Below, in pieces: positions 36,286 through 47,288 of a stretch of 64,000 nt of DNA. The DNA is taken from NCBI GenBank assembly GCA_903826575.1, contig CAIKEU010000029.1:1-64000 (forward strand), in the 5' to 3' direction. How positions within the stretch are numbered: the stretch's first letter is position 1; each line of letters opens with the position of its first letter. Below the pieces are notes generated by a model that was not told the origin of the DNA, searched no databases, and saw only the letters and a list, made by a program, of their open reading frames with translations. This DNA is from an uncultured bacterium. GTDB lineage: Bacteria; Actinomycetota; Actinomycetes; S36-B12; CAIYMF01. Made by a program: the position numbers and the translations under genes.

Positions 36286-37617
36286 ATGACCTCGAATCCA
36301 CCTAGCAGCACGAATGGCGACGCCTCAACGGTAAAGAAGTCGAGCTGGAGAATCGATACGTCCGCACTTCGCGGACCACGCGATTTTCGACTGTTGTTCT
36401 TCGCTGGTCTCATATCAACTATCGGCTCGATGTTTACGTACGTGGCTGTGCCGTTACAAGCACAGCGCATGACGGGCTCGTTCGTCGTAGTTGGATTACT
36501 TGGTCTCGCCGAAGTGATTCCACTGATCGTGTTTGGACTGTGGGGCGGTGCGCTCGCTGACCACATGGATCGGCGTCAGATGGTGCTCATCGGCGAAGTC
36601 GGCGCTGCAACCTGCACTGTTCTTCTGTTCGTCAATGCTCTGAGCCCCACTCCGCAGGTGTGGGTGTTGTTCGTCGTGGGCGCACTGTTTGCCGTTTTCG
36701 ACTCCATCCAACGACCATCCCTCGATGCACTCTTGCCACAGATAGTTGCGCACGACGACATCACAAGTGCCGCAGCGTTGATGTCGTTGCGAGGTAACGC
36801 AACCTTCATTTTTGGAACTGCGATTGGCGGTTTCATTGCGAGTTATGCCGGTGTTGCCACCGCATATGGCCTCGACATCCTCACCTACGTCGCGTCATTT
36901 CTGTTGCTCATTCAGATCAGTAGTCGCGGTCGAATGTCCGATGAGGATCGACTGCCAGGACTGTCATCAATCACCGACGGACTTAGCTATGCGTGGCAGC
37001 GCAAAGACTTACTTGGCACATACGCAATCGATACAACGGCCATGATCTTTGCCTTTCCGACTGCAGTGTTTCCATTCGTTGCCGAGAAGTACAACGCACC
37101 GTGGGCATTGGGACTGCTCTTTGCTGCACCAGCAATCGGTGCCGGAATTGCATCGTTGACAAGCGGCTGGACATCACGCGTACATCGCCATGGTCGCGCA
37201 ATTTTCTTGGCAGCAATCGCATACGGTTTCGCAATCACACTGTTCGGACTCTCACCCACATTGCCAATCGCCTTGTTCTTTTTGGCCGTCTCAGGTGCAA
37301 CCGACATGGTCAGCGTCGTGTTTCGTCAATCAATTTGGAACAAGTCAATTCCCGATGCAGTTCGCGGTCGACTGGCTGGGATTGAACTCATGTCGTACGC
37401 AATCGGCCCGCAACTTGGTAACGCACGTGTGAGTCTCGGTGCACAATGGCGAGGACTTACAGCGTCAATTGCGACCGGCGGAATCCTCTGCGCTGCAGGC
37501 GTTTTCGGCCTTGCAGTTGCCCTTCCATCATTGTGGAGTTACGACGAGCGGACGTCGATTCACGTCGCGAACGTTCGCGAAGAACGTGAACGACATCAAC
37601 AACTCAAACCTGAGTAA
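36286..37617 (+). CDS. MFS transporter (MFS_3/EntS-like exporter)
   Basis: The 443-residue membrane protein has about twelve hydrophobic segments. Motif A reads LWGGALADHMDRRQMVLIGEVGAA and FAVFDSIQRPSLDALLPQIV follows, typical of the EntS/macrolide-exporter branch. A hydrophilic N terminus of about 25 residues includes GPRDFRLLFFAGLISTIGSMFTYVAVPLQ. It is encoded 5 bases after the hypothetical protein gene. The substrate is unknown. It is paralogous in type to the transporter at 22908-24194. Confidence 0.87.
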   Translation: MTSNPPSSTNGDASTVKKSSWRIDTSALRGPRDFRLLFFAGLISTIGSMFTYVAVPLQAQRMTGSFVVVGLLGLAEVIPLIVFGLWGGALADHMDRRQMVLIGEVGAATCTVLLFVNALSPTPQVWVLFVVGALFAVFDSIQRPSLDALLPQIVAHDDITSAAALMSLRGNATFIFGTAIGGFIASYAGVATAYGLDILTYVASFLLLIQISSRGRMSDEDRLPGLSSITDGLSYAWQRKDLLGTYAIDTTAMIFAFPTAVFPFVAEKYNAPWALGLLFAAPAIGAGIASLTSGWTSRVHRHGRAIFLAAIAYGFAITLFGLSPTLPIALFFLAVSGATDMVSVVFRQSIWNKSIPDAVRGRLAGIELMSYAIGPQLGNARVSLGAQWRGLTASIATGGILCAAGVFGLAVALPSLWSYDERTSIHVANVREERERHQQLKPE

Positions 37618-37765
37618 CCATGTGCCCGTTGTGATCTGCGCTACGAGCCGTACGACACGAAGTTGCGTACCGACGTATACATGCGTCACATTTGTAACTA
37701 GTTCTGACACAGTTAAGAACATAGGATTCCGGCAACAAGGCTGGGGTACGACTCAGGGAGGCATC

Positions 37766-38197
37766 GTGGCGGCTGCTAAGACCACCGCGAAGAAGGTTGC
37801 CAAAAAGGCACCCGCGAAAAAGGTAGTTGCTAAGAAGGCACCAGCCAAGAAGGCCGTTGCTAAGAAGGCACCAGCCAAGACCGCTGCTGCGAAGAAGGCA
37901 GTTGCAACGAAAGTTGCGGCTCGCAAGGCCGCGGTAAAGAAGGCGCCGGCCAAGACTGCGGCTGCAACGAAGTCAGTCGCCAAGAAGGCTGCCGTCAAGA
38001 AGGCCGCTGTCAAGAAGTCGGTCACTACTAAGACTGCCGTTCGTAAGGCTGCCGTCAAGAAGGCCGTCGCCAAGAAGGCACCAGCACGCAAGGTTGCTGC
38101 CAAGAAGGCACCGGCCAAGAAAGCTGCTGTTAAGGCACCGGCTCGCAAGACCGTTGCTAAGAAGGCACCAGCGCGCAAGGCCGCTACAAAGCGATAA
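37766..38197 (+). CDS. Lysine/alanine-rich histone H1-like nucleoid protein
   Basis: The 143-residue protein consists almost wholly of degenerate Lys/Ala/Pro/Val repeats (KKAPAKK, KKAVAKK, RKAAVKK), like the tails of histone H1 and of actinobacterial HupS/HupB proteins, but without a globular HU domain. It is extremely basic and should bind nucleic acid non-specifically. The GTG at 37766 follows GGGAGG; upstream codons in the same frame overlap the MFS gene and are not repeat-like. It ends two bases before a very strong terminator-like hairpin. The repeats favour slippage, so copy number may vary among strains. Confidence 0.85.
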   Translation: MAAAKTTAKKVAKKAPAKKVVAKKAPAKKAVAKKAPAKTAAAKKAVATKVAARKAAVKKAPAKTAAATKSVAKKAAVKKAAVKKSVTTKTAVRKAAVKKAVAKKAPARKVAAKKAPAKKAAVKAPARKTVAKKAPARKAATKR

Positions 38198-39183: not shown

Positions 39184-39957
39184 ATGCCTTCATTACCCCA
39201 AGTCCCATCATGGTCTGACGACGTGAAGACTCTGGCCATCGACATCGGCGGAAGTGGATTCAAGGCAGCGGTTCTGAGCGCCAACGGTTCGATGACGACC
39301 CAGCGCGTGCGCATCGAAACTCCTTACCCATGCCCACCCGAGGTGTTCATCGACACCGTCACGCATCTCGTCCATGACTTAGGTTCATGGGACAGGGTCA
39401 GCGTCGGATTTCCCGGCTTAGTCAGGCAGGGGCGGGTACGCAATATCCCCACACTTTCTCGGCGTGCGTACGACGGAGAATCCGATCCAGAACTTGAAGC
39501 CATTTGGGAAAACTACGATCTCGAGTCAGCTCTGGCGCAAGCCTTCGGGGTGCCGGTCAAGGTGGCCAATGATGCAGACGTGCAGGGTTGTGCGGTCGTC
39601 GAGGGCCGCGGCTTCGAGTTCGTTATGACCTTGGGGACGGGTGTGGGCACGGCACTGTTTCTCAACGGTCGTCTCGCTCCTCATCTTGAGGCCGGCCACG
39701 CCCCCTTTCGAAAGGGCGACACATTCGAAGAGCAGCTCGGAAATGTGGCACGCGTCGCTGTCGGTAATGAGAGATGGCGACGTCGACTGGTAAAAGCTAT
39801 TGCCGCCTACAATTCGTTCCTGTTCTTCGACACGATCTTCATCGGTGGTGGGAACGCAAAACACGTTGACCCGGCAATGCTGCCGGAAAATGCTCGCATC
39901 GTTGACAACACGGCGGGTATCACCGGCGGCGTTCGACTGTGGGATATGGACAGTTAG
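39184..39957 (+). CDS. ppgK: Polyphosphate glucokinase (ROK family)
   Basis: The 257-residue ROK-type kinase has the phosphate-binding DIGGSGFKAAVL, the sugar-binding VANDADVQG with catalytic Asp, LGTGVGTALFLNGRLAPHLE and FDTIFIGGGNAKH. The zinc motif of other ROK glucokinases is absent, as expected for PpgK. The family phosphorylates glucose using polyphosphate or ATP, an actinobacterial speciality. Start is ATG at 39184; no strong Shine-Dalgarno is seen, and a GTG at 39223 (VKTLAID) is an alternative. Confidence 0.9.
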   Translation: MPSLPQVPSWSDDVKTLAIDIGGSGFKAAVLSANGSMTTQRVRIETPYPCPPEVFIDTVTHLVHDLGSWDRVSVGFPGLVRQGRVRNIPTLSRRAYDGESDPELEAIWENYDLESALAQAFGVPVKVANDADVQGCAVVEGRGFEFVMTLGTGVGTALFLNGRLAPHLEAGHAPFRKGDTFEEQLGNVARVAVGNERWRRRLVKAIAAYNSFLFFDTIFIGGGNAKHVDPAMLPENARIVDNTAGITGGVRLWDMDS

Positions 39958-39969
39958 GACCGTCTGAGT

Positions 39970-39989
39970 GTAGTTGGATTTTCAATTAC
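39970..39989. promoter_or_regulatory. Candidate MarR operator
   Basis: Imperfect inverted repeat GTAGTTG-GATTTT-CAATTAC (6 of 7 pairs), 24 bases upstream of the MarR start. Size and AT content fit a MarR autoregulatory site. Confidence 0.4.
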
Positions 39990-40013
39990 CTCGTTCTCGA
40001 CGTACCATAGGGC

Positions 40014-40520
40014 ATGACCAACTGGCTCGATGTCGATCAGCAGCGACATTGGCGCGCATACATCGCGGCGACCACGTTGCTCCACGAACAGTTATCGCGA
40101 GAGTTGCAGGACGAACACGGCATCTCGATGGGTGATTACGAAATCCTGGTCCGCCTGTCCGAAGCACCAGATCGCACCCTTCGGATGAGTCACCTCGCCG
40201 ACAGCACGTTGGCAAGCCGCAGCCGGCTGTCGCATCAAATCGACCGACTGGAGAAGGCCGGAGTCGTGCGCCGACAGGCCTGTGATGAGGACCGGCGCGG
40301 CCAAAACGCAATTCTGACCGACGAAGGTTTCGCTCTCCTAGTTGGTGCCGCGCCAACTCACGTCACCGGTGTTCGTAAGTACCTCGTCGATCTTCTGACC
40401 GCAGAACAATTCAGTGCGCTCGGTCGCGCCTGCGAAATCATCGCCGAAAACTTAGACGAAAACCCATTCGCACTCAAAGTCTGCCCGACCGGCAACGAAA
40501 AGAACCGAGATCTTCTGTGA
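40014..40520 (+). CDS. MarR-family transcriptional regulator
   Basis: The 168-residue protein has the MarR winged helix: YEILVRLSEAPDRTLRMSHLADSTLASRSRLSHQIDRLEKAGVVRR, then DRRGQNAILTDEGFALL for the wing. It regulates itself or distant genes; neither neighbour is an obvious target. An imperfect palindrome upstream may be its operator. A strong bidirectional terminator separates it from the convergent LPKTG gene. No cysteine-based redox sensor motif is evident. Confidence 0.9.
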   Translation: MTNWLDVDQQRHWRAYIAATTLLHEQLSRELQDEHGISMGDYEILVRLSEAPDRTLRMSHLADSTLASRSRLSHQIDRLEKAGVVRRQACDEDRRGQNAILTDEGFALLVGAAPTHVTGVRKYLVDLLTAEQFSALGRACEIIAENLDENPFALKVCPTGNEKNRDLL

Positions 40521-40533
40521 GTTCGGCTCGGTA

Positions 40534-40575
40534 AATGCAGTGACCTCGCACATCTGTGCGAGGTCACTGCATTTG
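40534..40575. terminator. Bidirectional terminator between MarR and LPKTG genes
   Basis: Perfect 19-base-pair stem (40534-40552 with 40557-40575), loop ATCT, with A and T tracts at the ends. It lies between convergent genes and can serve both. Confidence 0.85.
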
Positions 40576-40620
40576 TTTGCTATACATGCGACCTGCCTGG
40601 TGCAGGTCGCCGACGCGGTA

Positions 40621-41262
40621 CTACTCGTGAGTGCCGCGCGGACGTCCAGCCACAACAGCAGCGGCGCCGAGGGCCGCGAGTGCCAGGCCAATAAGGGCTT
40701 CTGTTCCCGTGTTAGATGTTCCAGTCTTCGGCAACTGCGACGCGTTGCTGCCACCGGTGTTGCCATCACCGCCGTTGCCGCCATTTGCGCCTGCACCACT
40801 GTCAGTGCCGCTCGGGTCAGTGCTCTGCGAGGGATCCTCCGAAGGCGAATCGGTGGCTGAGGCTGACTCACTCGGAGTGTCCGTGGGCGAGGCACTGTCG
40901 GTTGGCGATGCACTCTCCGTGGGTGAATCGGTTGGCGAGGCGGACTCCGTGGGCGAGGCGGACTCCGTTGGCGATGCGCTCTCCGTGGGCGATGCGGACT
41001 CTGTCGGTGAGGCGCTGTCCGTCGGCGACGGCGAATCCGTCGGCGTTGCTGAATCCGTCGGCGTCGGAGAATCGGTCGGCGAAGCCGTTGGCGAGCCACT
41101 GTCGGTTGGGATTGGCGTAGGGGCGCAAGCCGGGCGGACACCAACCGCAGCTGCCGTGCCAATCAGCGGGCCAGCGCTTAACCCTAGAACTGCAGTTGCT
41201 GCACAGGCAGCCAAGGCGACGCGGACCTGCTTACGACGCAATGAAGATGTCGATCCTGACAA
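40621..41262 (-). CDS. Secreted LPKTG cell-wall-anchored Ser/Pro/Thr repeat protein
   Basis: The 213-residue protein has a signal peptide (residues about 1-37, VALAACAATAVLGLSAG core), then a stalk of about 100 residues made of ESASPT/DSPT repeats. A Gly/Asn-rich spacer follows, then the sortase signal LPKTG, a hydrophobic helix and the basic tail RPRGTHE. It contains no globular domain, so it is a wall-anchored spacer, probably glycosylated on Ser/Thr. The start is TTG at 41262: GGAGGG precedes it by 6 bases and the signal peptide begins there. No sortase gene is in the window. The convergent terminator lies 45 bases after its stop. Confidence 0.85.
   Translation of the reverse strand: MSGSTSSLRRKQVRVALAACAATAVLGLSAGPLIGTAAAVGVRPACAPTPIPTDSGSPTASPTDSPTPTDSATPTDSPSPTDSASPTESASPTESASPTESASPTESASPTDSPTESASPTDSASPTDTPSESASATDSPSEDPSQSTDPSGTDSGAGANGGNGGDGNTGGSNASQLPKTGTSNTGTEALIGLALAALGAAAVVAGRPRGTHE
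40860..41100. repeat. Tandem DNA repeats encoding the ESASPT/DSPT stalk
   Basis: Degenerate 18-base units, interrupted by 12-base units, encode repeating ESASPT-type hexapeptides within the LPKTG protein. The array can slip and change stalk length. Confidence 0.75.
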
Positions 41263-41532
41263 CGTAATCCCTCCAAGAACAATCAATGACAAAGCACAGT
41301 GTGCCCTATTGCTGGGGCAGCCACAGGCATTTCGACCCATCTGTCGAGCAAATGTTGGTGAACAGTTCGTTTGCACATTCAGCTCTTACCGCACAGCGCC
41401 GAAGGGGCGGGAAGTTCGCTGTGAAACAGGGCATTGTTCAACTAGCACAGGGTAATTCGAGTCTTACACAGGGTTAACAACGTCACGGTCATTCATCGTG
41501 GAGCACCGACGAGTTCTCCCGGACACAGGTGC

Positions 41533-42918
41533 TTACTTGTATCCAGCCATTGTCAGCGCGGACTGCAACGACGTTTTGAATGCGGCGCTTGTGTACGTAG
41601 CGCCGGAGTACGAGGCGATGTTGGCGGAGTTCGCGGCAATAGCCTCGGAGATCAACGTGGGCTTGGCCGCAGCACAGATCCGCGCTGATGTGCTGTCCGC
41701 TGTCGGACAAACGGGAACGGTAATCGCCGTGATCTTGCCACCAGAGATCGTGGCCACTACCTGAACGTTTCCGGTCACACCTTGACCAGGCACATTCACA
41801 ACCGTACTTGTGCCGGTGTAGACACCGTCGATCACCGTGCTTGCCGGAACCGTCGGGGTGGGTGTTGGTGTTGGCGTGACGACCGTGGGCGTTGGTGTTG
41901 GCGTCACAACCACCGGCGGCGGTGTCGGTGTTGGCGCGACCACTGTCGGTGTGGGAGTAGGCGCAACGACCGTCGGCGTAGGGGTGGGTGTTGCCACCGT
42001 GGGGGCGGGGGTTGGGGTCGGAGTTGTTGGTACGGGCGACGGAGTGGACGACGTGGTCGGGGACGGAGTCGCGGATGCAACCGTGGTTGCTCCTGGAGTG
42101 GCCCAGATCAGCCCAAGTGAACCGTCAAAGCAGGCCCCGTTATCTACGTAGACCTGGTATCCGTTGGTGTCGTTGGTGACACTGCCACACGTGGTGGACC
42201 ATGTCTGCCCTGGCGCCAAGATGGCAGACGGTCCATAACGCGGGTCAACGCTGACGGGTACTCCGTTAACGATTGTCACGCCGTTCACGATGGTCGTCGT
42301 CGGCGTTGAACTAGGCGCAGCGGTTGCGGACGTTGTGGGCGCAGCGGACGGCGTCGCTGAGGGAGCCACCGAGGGCGACACCGATGGACGCGGGGCCGCA
42401 CTTGTTAGCGTAGGCGTCGCGGTGACTGTCGCGAGGTTCGTCTGATCGGCGAGGAGAACGGTGGTGCACGAGTACGTCCACGTCTCACCAATGTTGAGTA
42501 GCGGATCTGCGTCGTTGCCGGTCGGGCCGACAATATGCGAGCAACCAACGTCTGAGATGCGAACGTTGGTGAAGTCCGTGGTGCCGGTGTTCTTCAACGT
42601 GTAGGTGAAGGTAACCGTCGAACCGACCGATACCAGTAACTGATCGGACGTCGTAACCAGAGACATCGAGGCATTACGCGCATAGACCGTATGGCCGGAA
42701 CTAACTGATACGTCTATGTTTTCAAGGTTCGTACCCGGAGCGACGGGGGCAGAGTTATCAGCAATAGCCGAAGACAAGAGATTCGCTCCGAAGACCGCAG
42801 CGATTCCAACAGCGGTCCCCGCGGAAACCAGTACGCGATTGCTAACGATCGGCGACGAGTGGCCAGAGGCTACGTGCTTGCCTCCGACCACTCCGCGACG
42901 ACTTGCGTGCTTACCCAT
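41533..42918 (-). CDS. Secreted DUF11-like/FMN-binding domain protein with long Pro/Thr linker
   Basis: The 461-residue protein has a signal-anchor at about residues 28-53. A DUF11-like beta-sandwich covers about 55-170 (STVTFTYTLKNTGTTDFTNVRISDVG, ETWTYSCTTVLLADQT). Two low-complexity Ser/Thr/Pro/Val linkers flank a Cys-containing insert at about 210-270. The C-terminal FMN-binding domain (about 365-461) has VIDGVYTGTSTVV, VATISGGKITAI and the flavinylation motif SGATYTS (Thr 441), where ApbE-type transferases attach FMN covalently. It probably carries electrons outside the membrane. It is paralogous to the next gene upstream, 50 bases away. The start codon has only a distant AGGGA. No ApbE gene is in the window. 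Confidence 0.8.
   Translation of the reverse strand: MGKHASRRGVVGGKHVASGHSSPIVSNRVLVSAGTAVGIAAVFGANLLSSAIADNSAPVAPGTNLENIDVSVSSGHTVYARNASMSLVTTSDQLLVSVGSTVTFTYTLKNTGTTDFTNVRISDVGCSHIVGPTGNDADPLLNIGETWTYSCTTVLLADQTNLATVTATPTLTSAAPRPSVSPSVAPSATPSAAPTTSATAAPSSTPTTTIVNGVTIVNGVPVSVDPRYGPSAILAPGQTWSTTCGSVTNDTNGYQVYVDNGACFDGSLGLIWATPGATTVASATPSPTTSSTPSPVPTTPTPTPAPTVATPTPTPTVVAPTPTPTVVAPTPTPPPVVVTPTPTPTVVTPTPTPTPTVPASTVIDGVYTGTSTVVNVPGQGVTGNVQVVATISGGKITAITVPVCPTADSTSARICAAAKPTLISEAIAANSANIASYSGATYTSAAFKTSLQSALTMAGYK
41840..42060. repeat. Low-complexity GT-rich tract encoding the PTPTPTVV linker
   Basis: Repeated short units on the minus strand encode TPTPTPTVVAP-type repeats in the linker of the FMN-binding protein. 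The linker probably spans the peptidoglycan. Confidence 0.75.
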
Positions 42919-42968
42919 GAAGAAAGACGTCCCTAGTTAGTACGTAATCTCAGAGCGACAAGAACGAT

Positions 42969-43862
42969 TTAGTAGCCGGCCTGGGTCAATGAATCCTGGA
43001 GCGATGAAGCGTATGCGAGCGAGAAGAAGGTCGCGCCCGAAGCCGACGCGATGGTTGCCGAGTTCGCTGCAATCGCCTCTTGGGACAAGATCGTGGCCGC
43101 TGGCGTATCAAAGTTCGGTCCGGCGCCGTTGATGTATAGGGCGTTTCCAGCACTGATGCTCGAGACCAATTCGACGGAGGTGATCTTTCCACCTGCAATC
43201 GTTGTCTTAACTTGAACATTGTCGGCTGTAGCACCACGAGCTGAAGCGGCGAATGTCGTCCCATTCGGCAGCTTGAAGTTGCCTTCGTTCTTCACCGCGC
43301 CGGTGTACACACCATCGGTGATCGTCTTGGTCGCGACCGGTGTCGGCGATGCAACGGGGACATCCGCCGTTGACAGGATCGGAGTAGCGAGCACCGATGC
43401 GTTGTTCGTCTGATCGGCGAGCAGCGTCGTGGTACAGGTGTACGTCCAGGTCTCACCGGCGTTCAACAGCGGGTCAGCATTGTTGCCCTGCGGGCCGACG
43501 ATGTTCGCGCACCCGACATCCGAGATGCGGACGTTCTGAAAGTCCGTCGTGCCGGTGTCCTTGAGCGTGTAGGTGAACGTTACGTCCGTGCCTGGCGAAA
43601 CGAGGTTCTTGTCAGACGTGGTGTCCAGTGACAACGAGGCATTACGTGCGTAGACGGTGGCACCTGAATTTACCGACACGTCAATGTTCGGCAGGTTAGT
43701 ACCGGGTGCGACGGGGGTGCTGTTCGCGGCCAGCGCGTTGTTCAAGGCGTTGGCACCGAAGACGGCGGCAATGCCCGCGACCGTGCCGACGGCGATGAGC
43801 GGACCGCGCGACAGGGGCAGGCGCCCGCGAAGCGAGCTGTTTGCGGCGACGTGGCGAGTCAT
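42969..43862 (-). CDS. Secreted DUF11-like/FMN-binding domain protein, short-linker paralogue
   Basis: The 297-residue protein has a signal-anchor (about residues 20-48) and the same DUF11-like sandwich as its neighbour (VTFTYTLKDTGTTDFQNVRISDVG). A linker of only about 20 residues leads to an FMN-binding domain (about 180-297): ITDGVYTGAVKNEGN, VKTTIAGGKITSVEL and SGATFFS (Thr 278, probable FMN attachment). The ATG at 43862 follows GGAGG with a 6-base spacer. It is first of the pair, so a promoter probably lies in the 43863-44476 gap, divergent from the multicopper oxidase. Close similarity over the first 150 residues shows a tandem duplication. Confidence 0.8.
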   Translation of the reverse strand: MTRHVAANSSLRGRLPLSRGPLIAVGTVAGIAAVFGANALNNALAANSTPVAPGTNLPNIDVSVNSGATVYARNASLSLDTTSDKNLVSPGTDVTFTYTLKDTGTTDFQNVRISDVGCANIVGPQGNNADPLLNAGETWTYTCTTTLLADQTNNASVLATPILSTADVPVASPTPVATKTITDGVYTGAVKNEGNFKLPNGTTFAASARGATADNVQVKTTIAGGKITSVELVSSISAGNALYINGAGPNFDTPAATILSQEAIAANSATIASASGATFFSLAYASSLQDSLTQAGY

Positions 43863-44476
43863 CGAGTTCCTCCGAAAAGTATGTGGCGGGCTACTCCCGC
43901 TCGGTGGAAAGACTCCCTCATTCGGAGTAGCGGCGCGTATGCACTTTAGTGAACGGACCGTGAACAGAATTTGCCATTTTGTCCAAGGCGTCGGCCCGAT
44001 ATCACATTAAATTTCCCAACTTTACCCATAAAGATGAACGAAAGGTTACGCACGGTGAGTGCGCACTTGCAGAAGCAGATTTACTACTCCATGTGGGTTA
44101 CGCCAACCGCTCACTGTCGTGATAATCCATGTCGCCACGTCGAAATTGGGCGTTCAAGACAGGCTCCCGGCACGAGAAGGAGCGTCGCTACTTAGCGTGA
44201 TGAAGAGTCATTCGAATGGCCCAACGACGATCCATAAGAGCAATAACTACCGACGAGCACATCCCCCGAACCTCAACATGATGCCTCGAACCTATCCGGC
44301 TATCGGATAATTTCGTGACTAAAACGCGGTGGAGCATGACGTTGAGTGAAGTTTTCACAAGGTGCGCTCAAGAATCTCACCAGAGACTCACCGAATCCCG
44401 ACCGTGCCAGTCTCCAAGTTGCGATGGTTACTCAGAGTGCGAGGGTTGGGGCTCGCCCCCCATTCGAAGGACAGTC
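43863..44476. other. 614-base divergent intergenic region
   Basis: This gap lies between the FMN-binding and multicopper oxidase genes. It is less GC-rich than its surroundings, with AT-rich stretches near 43990-44050. A short inverted repeat TATCCG-gctat-CGGATA lies near 44294. I see no conserved RNA, riboswitch or convincing small gene. It should hold the promoters of both divergent units. Confidence 0.4.
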
Positions 44477-45730
44477 ATGAATGCCGAAAACGAACTTACT
44501 CACGACTACCACGACGAGGCGACAAACCCGTCGTCGAGACGCCGAGGGTTCCGAGGCCGCGGTATCGCAATCCTGTGCGCTGTGACTTTGGCCCTCGGCT
44601 GGGTCTTCATCGGCCCCGGCGGTATCGGTGGCGGACACAACCACGGCGCCGAGGCAAACGCCGCTGGCACATGCGTTGGAGCGGTCAAGCCGATGACTCG
44701 CACGTATTACATCGCCGCCGACCTCGTTCAGTGGAACTACGCACCAGATGGCCTCAACGTTGCCCAAGGACGGCCGTTCACCGCGCAGGAAAACACCTAC
44801 GTCGGAATAGGCGCTGGCCGGATCGGAAGCACCTACACCAAGGCGCTCTAACGCGAGTACACCGATGCAACGTTTGCGACCCTCAAGCCGCGTCCGGCAG
44901 CAGACGCGTACCTTGGCATCCTCGGCCCAACAATCCGAGCCCAGGTTGGTGACACGATCAAGGTGGTATTCAAGAACAACTCATCCTTCCCAGCATCAGT
45001 GCATCCGCACGATGTGGTGTACACCCATGCCAACGAGGGTACGCCTTACGAATTCCCAGGTGAGACCGCAGCTGACCGTCTTGACGACGCAGTCGCCCCC
45101 GGAGCGTCGTACACGTACACGTGGAACGTTGCGACACGAAGCGGTCCCGGCCCAGGAGATCCCTCGTCGAAACTGTCGATGTATCACTCACATACCGACG
45201 AGGTTGGTGACACCTACTCCGGTCTCATCGGGCCAATGATCATCACGCGCGCTGGATGCGCGGCCGCTGATGGTCACCCGCTTGACGTGGATCGCGAGAT
45301 CATCAATCTCTACCAGGTGTGGAACGAAAACAAGAGTCTCTACCTCGACCAGAACATGGCCGAGATGACACCTGACGCAACACTCACCAATGCTCAGTTG
45401 AAGGACGACCCCGGGTTCGAAGAGTCGAACCTCATGCACGCCATCAACGGTTACGTCTTCACCAACGGCCCCAAGGCTGCGATGAACCGGAACACCAAGG
45501 TGCGCTGGTACATCTTTAGCATGGGCACCGAAGTCGATCTTCACACCCCGCACGTCCATGGCAATGTATGGACGAACAGCATGGGTATGAACATGGACAT
45601 GTTCGGAGTTCTGCCCGGTGAAATGCAGACCCTCAACATGGTCCCGGACGCCGCAGGACTGTGGCTCATGCACTGTCACGTGAATGACCACATCACCGCG
45701 GGCATGATTTCCGAGTACCAAGTTAACTAA
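44477..45730 (+). pseudogene. Two-domain multicopper oxidase interrupted by one in-frame TAA
   Basis: The frame is continuous for 418 codons except for TAA at 44849-44851 (codon 125), where ALYREYTDATF-like sequence is expected, so one base change (TAC to TAA) would explain it. The N terminus has a membrane segment (RGIAILCAVTLALGWVFIG). Copper sites are seen after the stop: VHPHD, YHSHTDEVGDTYSGLIGPM, DLHTPHVHGN and the terminal MHCHVNDHITAGM cluster that joins type 1, 2 and 3 copper. It resembles ceruloplasmin-like two-domain oxidases. The ATG at 44477 follows AAGGAC. The downstream part alone lacks the start of domain 1. It is a recent pseudogene or a sequencing error. Confidence 0.8.
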
Positions 45731-45738
45731 TGGCTGTT

Positions 45739-45786
45739 CAGCGAAGGGGCTGCTCGCGCGACAATGCGCACGCAGCCCCTTCGCTG
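45739..45786 (+). terminator. Terminator after the multicopper oxidase frame
   Basis: Perfect 15-base-pair stem CAGCGAAGGGGCTGC and its complement (45772-45786), with GCGC pairing possible inside the 18-base loop. It begins 8 bases after the TAA. Confidence 0.75.
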
Positions 45787-45911
45787 TGTTCCGAACAACT
45801 TCATAGCCAAACAGCGGATCTGTCGCTCGCGCCGGTTCCCCTAGCATGGTCTACACGCCGTCCCTAGAGAGCTAGAGCCGGGTCCCGCACACGCATTGGT
45901 GGAGACGCATG

Positions 45912-46847
45912 ATGACCGCATTCGGCGCACCACAACTAGCGGGCCCTGCGATGCTCACAGACTCTGGCCTTGAGACCGATCTCATCTTCGGCCGCGGCTG
46001 GGATTTACCTGAGTTTGCGTCATTCCCACTGCTCGCATCCGACGATGGTCGCGCAGCCCTTCTTGCGTATTACCAAGAGCATGTGGACGTCGCTATCACA
46101 CACGGGGCGGGCTTCGTATTCGAAACACCAACATGGAGAGCGAGCCGGGACTGGGGTCAGCGCCTTGGATACGGCTCCGCTCACCTCGACCAGATAAACG
46201 CGGACGCTGTCCAACTCCTTCGCGACCTTCGCGACGCTAGCCCGTCGCTAAAATCAGCCACAATCAGCGGCAACCTTGGCCCCCGCGGTGACGGATACAT
46301 CCCCTCTGGAGCGATGGTGGCCGACGAAGCGCGTTCCTACCACGCCCGACAGATCGAGGCATTGGTCGGCGCCGGCGCGGAAGTAATCACTGTTCTTACC
46401 CTCAACTATCCAGCCGAAGGCCTCGGTATCGCCCAAGCTGCCAAGGATGCGCGTATTCCGGCAATCCTGTCCTTCACTGTCGAGACTGATGGCTCACTCC
46501 CCGACGGAACTCATCTCGGTTCAGCAATCGACTTCATCGATGAGCAAACCGACGGCTACGTTAGCTTCTACGGCCTTAACTGTGCGCACCCAGAACACAT
46601 GACGCCTGCCATCGCACCTGGCGCCAACTGGACGACGCGCATCGGTTCGCTGCGAGCAAACGCCTCCAAACTCAGCCACGCAGAACTAGATGCTTTGGAC
46701 ACGATCGACGCCGGCGATCCGGGAGAACTCGCATCGGACTACGACGAACTGCGCTCGCTGCTACCCAACCTCACGGTCTTCGGCGGGTGTTGCGGTACGG
46801 ATGTACGTCACGTCAGTGCAATCGCGAACGTCATCGCCCCGCTTTAG
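45912..46847 (+). CDS. Homocysteine S-methyltransferase family protein
   Basis: The 311-residue TIM-barrel enzyme has a pterin-independent homocysteine methyltransferase layout: MLTDSGLETDLIF at the start and zinc-binding cysteines in GLNCAHPEHM and FGGCCGTDVRHV. It methylates homocysteine, or a related thiol, probably using S-methylmethionine or a betaine-like donor, giving methionine. Two adjacent ATGs (45909, 45912) follow GGAG; the second has the better 7-base spacing. It is monocistronic, followed by the convergent RNase P RNA gene. Confidence 0.88.
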   Translation: MTAFGAPQLAGPAMLTDSGLETDLIFGRGWDLPEFASFPLLASDDGRAALLAYYQEHVDVAITHGAGFVFETPTWRASRDWGQRLGYGSAHLDQINADAVQLLRDLRDASPSLKSATISGNLGPRGDGYIPSGAMVADEARSYHARQIEALVGAGAEVITVLTLNYPAEGLGIAQAAKDARIPAILSFTVETDGSLPDGTHLGSAIDFIDEQTDGYVSFYGLNCAHPEHMTPAIAPGANWTTRIGSLRANASKLSHAELDALDTIDAGDPGELASDYDELRSLLPNLTVFGGCCGTDVRHVSAIANVIAPL

Positions 46848-46877: not shown

Positions 46878-47288
46878 GTGCAGGCGAGTCGACCTATAAG
46901 CCGGGTTCTGTGCCGATCCGAAGATCGGCGGCGACCATCCCTCTAGGACCACCGTTGCCGATGGCCTCGTGCGGTCTACCCGCAGACTCGAACTGGCAGT
47001 CCTCAAACGTCTGCGCAATGCAATCCGAAAATCGCACCTCTTGACCTTGCTCCAGGTGGGGTTTACCAAGCCGCGAAGGTCACCCAACGCGCTGGTGGTC
47101 TCTTACACCACCGTTTCACCCTTACTACCGATGCTGGGCATCACTAGCGGTCTATTCTCTGTGGCACTTTCCCGCGGGTTTCCCCGGGTGGGCGTTACCC
47201 ACCACCCTGCCGTGTGGAGCCCGGACTTTCCTCGACGTACACAGTTACCTGCTACGCCGCGGCCGCCCGGTCAACTCGCCTGCCTACG
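46878..47288 (-). ncRNA. rnpB: RNase P RNA (bacterial class A)
   Basis: The minus strand carries the conserved RNase P core: GAGGAAAGTCCGGGCT near the 5' end, AAAGTGCCACAGAGAA, and the 3' core AGAACCCGGCTTAT. The outer P1 helix is formed by 47269-47283 with 46880-46894 (15 pairs with one G-U). The RNA is the catalytic subunit that cuts tRNA 5' leaders. Its 5' end lies about 15 bases after the stop of the RNB ribonuclease gene on the same strand, so its promoter is within that gene or it is processed from a joint transcript. Exact ends are uncertain by about 10 bases. Confidence 0.95.

Follow-up and report, generated by a model that had tools for sequence, protein, structure and literature searches.

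Among the described relatives of the proteins considered here, SaFMN3 of Streptomyces azureus stands closest: its domain 2 was crystallised with flavin mononucleotide (FMN) on a threonine (PDB 8P2A; PMC10339131). MsrQ-like systems, including a variant with a NuoF-like protein, are typical of Actinobacteria (Meheust et al., PMC8238504), and wall-associated clusters of multi-flavinylated proteins have been described as well (PMC8238504, Fig. 6). Here we analyse a locus within 64,000 nucleotides of an uncultured freshwater actinobacterium (contig CAIKEU010000029.1, positions 1 to 64,000; hereafter the window), which encodes two FMN-domain proteins, FMN1 and FMN2, a wall-anchored LPKTG stalk protein and, divergently, a multicopper oxidase (MCO). 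We conclude that the flavin half of this locus is real and is a new arrangement within the known actinobacterial toolkit for flavinylation and electron export. It adds a pair of DUF7507-FMN paralogues beside a sortase-type stalk to the flavinylation repertoire, and the analysis removes a tempting but unsupported link between flavin and copper.

FMN1 and FMN2 share with SaFMN3 and other ApbE-flavinylated FMN-bind proteins (PMC10339131, PMC8238504) the FMN fold, the [S/T]GA[S/T] site, an extracytosolic location and an actinobacterial origin. Unlike those proteins, each has a single FMN domain fused to an immunoglobulin (Ig)-like DUF7507 domain, FMN2 carries a Pro/Thr linker, the motif Asp is replaced by Ala, and no apbE gene is adjacent. 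With the actinobacterial MsrQ-like clusters (PMC8238504), some of which lie elsewhere in this genome, they have in common the FMN family and the N-terminal anchor; in contrast to those clusters, the window locus is without an MsrQ-like membrane protein and apbE, and has the LPKTG gene instead. The locus resembles the multi-flavinylated clusters (PMC8238504) in combining several FMN proteins with a wall-attached protein, but its FMN proteins carry a single domain, and anchoring is of the sortase type rather than through SLH, LysM, Rib or FIVAR domains. Finally, the MCO shares with ceruloplasmin and hephaestin ferroxidases and with two-domain MCOs all of the copper motifs, the predicted iron ligands and about one ceruloplasmin repeat (two cupredoxin domains); unlike ceruloplasmin and hephaestin, it has two domains rather than six, and its frame is interrupted.

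Two FMN-domain proteins beside a sortase-type stalk

FMN1 and FMN2 are tandem paralogues with a shared build: an N-terminal hydrophobic anchor, a DUF7507/DUF11 Ig-like domain and a C-terminal FMN domain (Table 1). Their N-terminal parts are about 67% identical in protein and 74% identical over 314 nt of DNA, and they diverge beyond. A first-pass annotation of this DNA had labelled the Ig-like domain DUF11; we found that it is closer to Pfam DUF7507, which matched both proteins, FMN1 below the cut-off. The same annotation had recognised two C-terminal FMN domains with SGAT motifs, and both sequence and fold bear this out: phmmer searches with the C-terminal domains matched 8P2A (E = 1.4e-8 for FMN1 and 8.4e-13 for FMN2), and 8P2A was also the best fold match of both AlphaFold models (TM-score by target length 0.79 and 0.89, respectively). 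Mean predicted local distance difference test (pLDDT) scores were 63 for FMN1 and 64 for FMN2, and scores were high across most of the C-terminal domain, which is predicted to form the small beta sheet and two helices of the FMN-bind fold; a different fold at this place was what the annotation had named as evidence against itself. Pfam FMN_bind was detected in FMN2 (E = 1.2e-6). Each protein has one FMN-bind domain, and so neither is multi-flavinylated.

The SGAT motif occupies the flavin site in both paralogues and in both species that carry them. FMN1 and FMN2 both have Ala at position 1 of the Dxx[S/T]GA[S/T] motif, a position at which Asp is also missing from most of the order's FMN proteins. 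We did not treat this Ala as excluding flavinylation, because the Asp-to-Ala change is reported to have had only minor effects in a tested substrate, a Klebsiella enzyme (PMC12052999). The anchor of both proteins carries the signature GTxxGxAAV and can be aligned with the anchors of further FMN proteins from the order, and the linker of FMN2 consists of about 87 residues, 99% of which are Pro, Thr, Ser, Ala or Val. The view that FMN1 and FMN2 are ApbE-type flavin carriers, secreted or membrane-anchored, is supported, and motif and model together predict a covalent FMN on the SGAT Thr of each.

The stalk gene is present as annotated, but the start proposed for it, 41376, is too early: the TTG at 41262 fits better, with GGAGGG upstream and an alignment to the sister species. 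Within the mature part a single Cys near its start, kept in the sister, precedes a repeat region of Pro, Ser, Thr, Asp and Glu that is encoded by an 18-nt DNA repeat. LPKTG follows at residue 177, and then a transmembrane segment and an RPRGTHE tail. Signal peptide, LPXTG motif, transmembrane segment and basic tail together give the layout of a sortase-anchored protein, and TIGR01167 matched above its cut-off. We found no redox domain in the stalk protein. The one sortase of the genome belongs to class E.

We searched 60 genomes, the window's own and relatives, for the DUF7507-FMN pair and found it outside the window's genome only in G004, a sister species of the same genus. There the order MCO-FMN1-FMN2-LPKTG-MarR-ROK-Map is kept, with the MCO spread over two contigs. 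Between the two species the ratio of nonsynonymous to synonymous substitution rates (dN/dS, NG86) was 0.13 for FMN1, 0.06 for FMN2 and 0.11 for LPKTG, values that are rough, as dS is near saturation. FMN1, FMN2 and LPKTG are under purifying selection in this sister pair, and the association of LPKTG with the FMN genes is conserved in these two sister species only.

The genes are separated by 50 bp (FMN1-FMN2) and 270 bp (FMN2-LPKTG), and 614 bp lie between MCO and FMN1. A terminator scan, whose sites were not in excess of chance, found no strong terminator between FMN1, FMN2 and LPKTG; the only strong one of the minus-strand genes comes after LPKTG. With gaps of this size and no strong internal terminator, a single FMN1-FMN2-LPKTG transcript is plausible, and the three genes probably form one operon.

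Table 1. Features of the locus, with positions in the window.
Feature	Position	Strand	Remarks
FMN1, 297 aa	42969..43862	-	anchor 22-40; DUF7507/DUF11 Ig-like domain 77-162; FMN domain about 204-297; SGAT 275-278
FMN2, 461 aa	41533..42918	-	anchor 29-47; DUF7507 83-177; small beta domain about 208-258; Pro/Thr-rich linker 276-362; FMN domain 365-460 with SGAT
LPKTG stalk, 213 aa	40621..41262	-	signal peptide, repeat region, LPKTG-transmembrane-basic tail; TTG start
Two-domain ceruloplasmin-like MCO, interrupted	44477..45730	+	divergent from FMN1; ATG start
In-frame TAA	44849..44851	+	inside conserved oxidase stretch; sense codon in homologues
Terminator-like hairpin, 20-bp stem	40532..40575		shared, between convergent LPKTG (-) and MarR (+) genes
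MarR-family regulator	40014..40520	+	convergent neighbour of LPKTG gene; kept in sister species

Flavinylation enzymes and candidate electron donors elsewhere in the genome

The genome has two ApbE loci, on contigs C69 and C68, and three MsrQ-like donor clusters, all of them away from the window locus. On C68, a Ferric_reduct/FAD/NAD protein is accompanied by ApbE and by FMN proteins, one of which has fibronectin repeats as a stalk. On C29, at about 73-75 kb and about 30 kb from the locus, genes for an FMN protein and a two-component system come immediately after that for a Ferric_reduct/NAD protein. The third cluster, on C69, encodes a NuoF-like protein (Complex1_51K and NADH_4Fe-4S), a multi-helix membrane protein and ApbE; Pfam does not recognise the membrane protein, which takes the position of the MsrQ-like protein and is probably MsrQ-like itself. 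A grouping of a PF01794 protein with apbE and FMN_bind genes is thus found elsewhere in the same genome and not at the window locus. The C68, C29 and C69 clusters resemble the MsrQ-like systems of Actinobacteria.

Two side observations concern other FMN proteins. A 1205-residue secreted protein on C68 (L008:11992-15609) has many fibronectin III domains and a terminal FMN domain with SGAT, a flavin on a long stalk. A second conserved FMN-domain pair, one member short and one with a long Pro/Thr linker, occurs in the window's genome (G000; L036:4521-6235 on C91) and in G004 (L037:7186-8907 on C9); its motifs are degenerate, TNAT, SNAT or GGAT instead of SGAT, and in G000 a Caa3_CtaG gene for copper/cytochrome oxidase assembly adjoins it.

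On balance we think it probable that FMN1 and FMN2 are orphan ApbE substrates that act as membrane-held flavin carriers, that the stalk is redox-inert and that the MCO lies outside the electron path. We take the two proteins as orphan substrates of an MsrQ-like system because of the MsrQ-like clusters in the genome and the GTxxGxAAV anchor common to the FMN proteins of the order. Both would be extracytosolic, held at the membrane by the N-terminal anchor, and each would receive one FMN on its SGAT Thr from one or the other of the genome's two ApbE enzymes, whose genes lie at other loci. Reduction would come from one of the NAD(P)H-driven, MsrQ-like transmembrane haem proteins, which are likewise encoded away from the locus. 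Lacking a linker, FMN1 would act close to the membrane; the Pro/Thr linker of FMN2 would let its flavin reach farther out across the wall, where the acceptor, soluble or mineral, would most likely be ferric iron or oxygen. For the LPKTG protein we propose a redox-inert role, as a spacer in the wall or a stalk for docking, and the MCO would be a separate gene of the ceruloplasmin type, ferroxidase-like and interrupted in this genome. The surface electron route put forward in the first-pass annotation is retained in its ApbE-type flavin carriers and neighbouring sortase-type stalk, and the genome does encode ApbE, a sortase and membrane donors; the copper oxidase as the sink is given up.

The multicopper oxidase and competing readings

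As annotated, MHCHVNDHITAGM lies on the plus strand and the oxidase is divergently transcribed. The gene is not one open gene, however, and its sequence is not unusual: it matches three ceruloplasmin repeats, and the whole chain matched ceruloplasmin in the PDB with E = 8e-176. A three-domain laccase or CopA identity was rejected, as NCBIfam scores fell far under the cut-offs and the ceruloplasmin repeats match at full length. The frame is broken by an in-frame TAA, beyond which the C-terminal part stays in phase (Table 1), so that no intact secreted frame is present. The copper motifs HPH, HSH, HVH and HCH (including HCHxxDHxxxGM) are all found downstream of the stop. By alignment only, the MCO has equivalents of the iron ligands E272 (in GTEVDLH), E935 and H940 (in ESNLMH) and D1025 (in HCHVNDH) in ceruloplasmin numbering (PMC3738974), a set that predicts Fe(II) oxidation rather than electron uptake from flavins.

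In G004, the gene is split between the end of contig C17 (L141) and the start of contig C19 (L035:1-400), and the two contigs overlap by 149 bp. Two direct GTTGGTGACAC repeats (window positions 44945 and 45203) enclose 258 bp that C17 lacks, a segment that holds the HPH and HSH motifs and was not found elsewhere in G004; its absence may reflect a real deletion, strain variation or misassembly. Intact homologues exist in other genomes.

Homologues of the MCO are found in Actinobacteria, ammonia-oxidising archaea, Gammaproteobacteria, Acidobacteria and others. We assessed 80 MCO loci, each with flanks of up to 10 kb, using a profile built from actinobacterial FMN domains; one locus (L055, a G004 contig that ends inside the MCO) was left out, and at none of the 79 informative loci was an FMN domain detected within 10 kb. 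In a control the profile recovered five actinobacterial FMN domains and missed a gammaproteobacterial one (L137), so the absence is less certain near gammaproteobacterial MCOs. Any FMN_bind domain at all was present in 29 of the 48 MCO genomes, leaving 19 with none. Even in the same genus, the 70% identical MCO of G009 (on C84) has no FMN neighbour. Scattered homologues without co-occurrence were what the first-pass annotation had said would speak against it, and for the MCO this is the pattern found. Two other candidate associations were dropped: in other phyla the largest groups of MCO neighbours look like antisense or alternate-frame open reading frames (ORFs) over the MCO, the rest being lineage-specific, and five regular-expression matches to LPXTG near MCOs all fell in spurious-looking frames.

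Because of the in-frame TAA, the damaged or ambiguous sister copy, the 0/79 loci with a detected FMN neighbour and the 19/48 genomes without FMN_bind, a flavin-to-copper route is not supported, and we do not judge the MCO to be part of the flavin system. That flavin proteins and oxidase form one surface route from a membrane donor to oxygen, as originally proposed, is in our view highly improbable, even with a complete copper site in the downstream frame and a divergent adjacency kept in two species: to the evidence just listed and the G009 locus must be added a ligand set that fits Fe(II) as the electron donor. The same ligands lend some weight to an iron redox pair at the cell surface, comparable to yeast Fre/Fet3, in which the flavin proteins would reduce Fe(III) and the MCO would re-oxidise Fe(II) for handover or detoxification, its half having recently been lost here. 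A role as iron reductase has been proposed for some MsrQ-like flavin systems (PMC8238504), and one FTR1 permease is encoded, on C85. FTR1 is on a different contig, however, the oxidase is interrupted, and no linkage of MCO and FMN was seen beyond the two sister species; we consider such a pair rather doubtful. A wall-spanning flavin relay with graded spacers (FMN1, FMN2 on its linker, the LPKTG scaffold), joined in some strains by the ferroxidase for surface cycling of Fe(III) and Fe(II), is a decidedly speculative extension.

It is also unlikely that FMN1, FMN2 and the stalk serve chiefly in surface structure or adhesion, with an FMN domain that is vestigial or non-respiratory (for example, in protein repair). 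DUF7507/DUF11 domains and LPXTG stalks are common among surface proteins, and large multi-repeat proteins contain related DUF7507 domains, but both paralogues retain SGAT and the FMN fold in each of the two species, and their dN/dS is low. Several points nonetheless weigh against the reading that we favour, of orphan flavin carriers with a redox-inert stalk. Neither apbE nor a membrane donor gene is found at the locus, so the partnership of FMN1 and FMN2 with donors and ApbE is by genome content only. Pfam FMN_bind was not detected in FMN1, where FFS follows SGAT instead of the usual YTS, and the dN/dS values carry the saturation noted above. Class E sortases often prefer LAXTG. As for the oxidase, the window's TAA may be an assembly or consensus error, and its divergent adjacency to FMN1 in both species could mean co-regulation.

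TGAS tails and neighbouring features

Directly upstream of apbE, the probable MsrQ-like gene and the NuoF-like gene lie genes for two secreted proteins (L007:9734-10730 on C69 of G000; L145-L157; L158-L169). These proteins have disordered, low-complexity tails with [ST]TGAS at or near the C-terminus, and TGAS is kept in most same-genus genomes that carry the genes, with tails that are barely alignable. Among 247 genomes of the class (Actinomycetes), such tails were found at 11 of the 15 loci with a C69-type apbE, against a background of 7 in 3184 ORFs. A literature search on the TGAS motif string found nothing. Engineered flavin-tags, seven residues long, perform best when placed at a terminus (PMC12052999), which makes natural TGAS tails plausible. 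We regard these proteins as candidate domain-less natural substrates of flavinylation, a lead and not a result; the tails, possibly a more general feature, would be natural counterparts of the engineered tag.

Around the locus, we found no evidence that the MarR gene regulates it, and Rfam gave no match in 39900-46200, so that the idea of a riboswitch or another known RNA ahead of FMN1 was dropped. A Lys/Ala/Pro-rich, histone-H1-like protein with a KKAPAKK repeat is encoded at 37439-38197 (+), and its repeat length is unlike that of the sister species' copy. At 46881-47278 (-) lies a class A RNase P RNA, flanked by homocysteine methyltransferase-like and RNase II/R-like genes.

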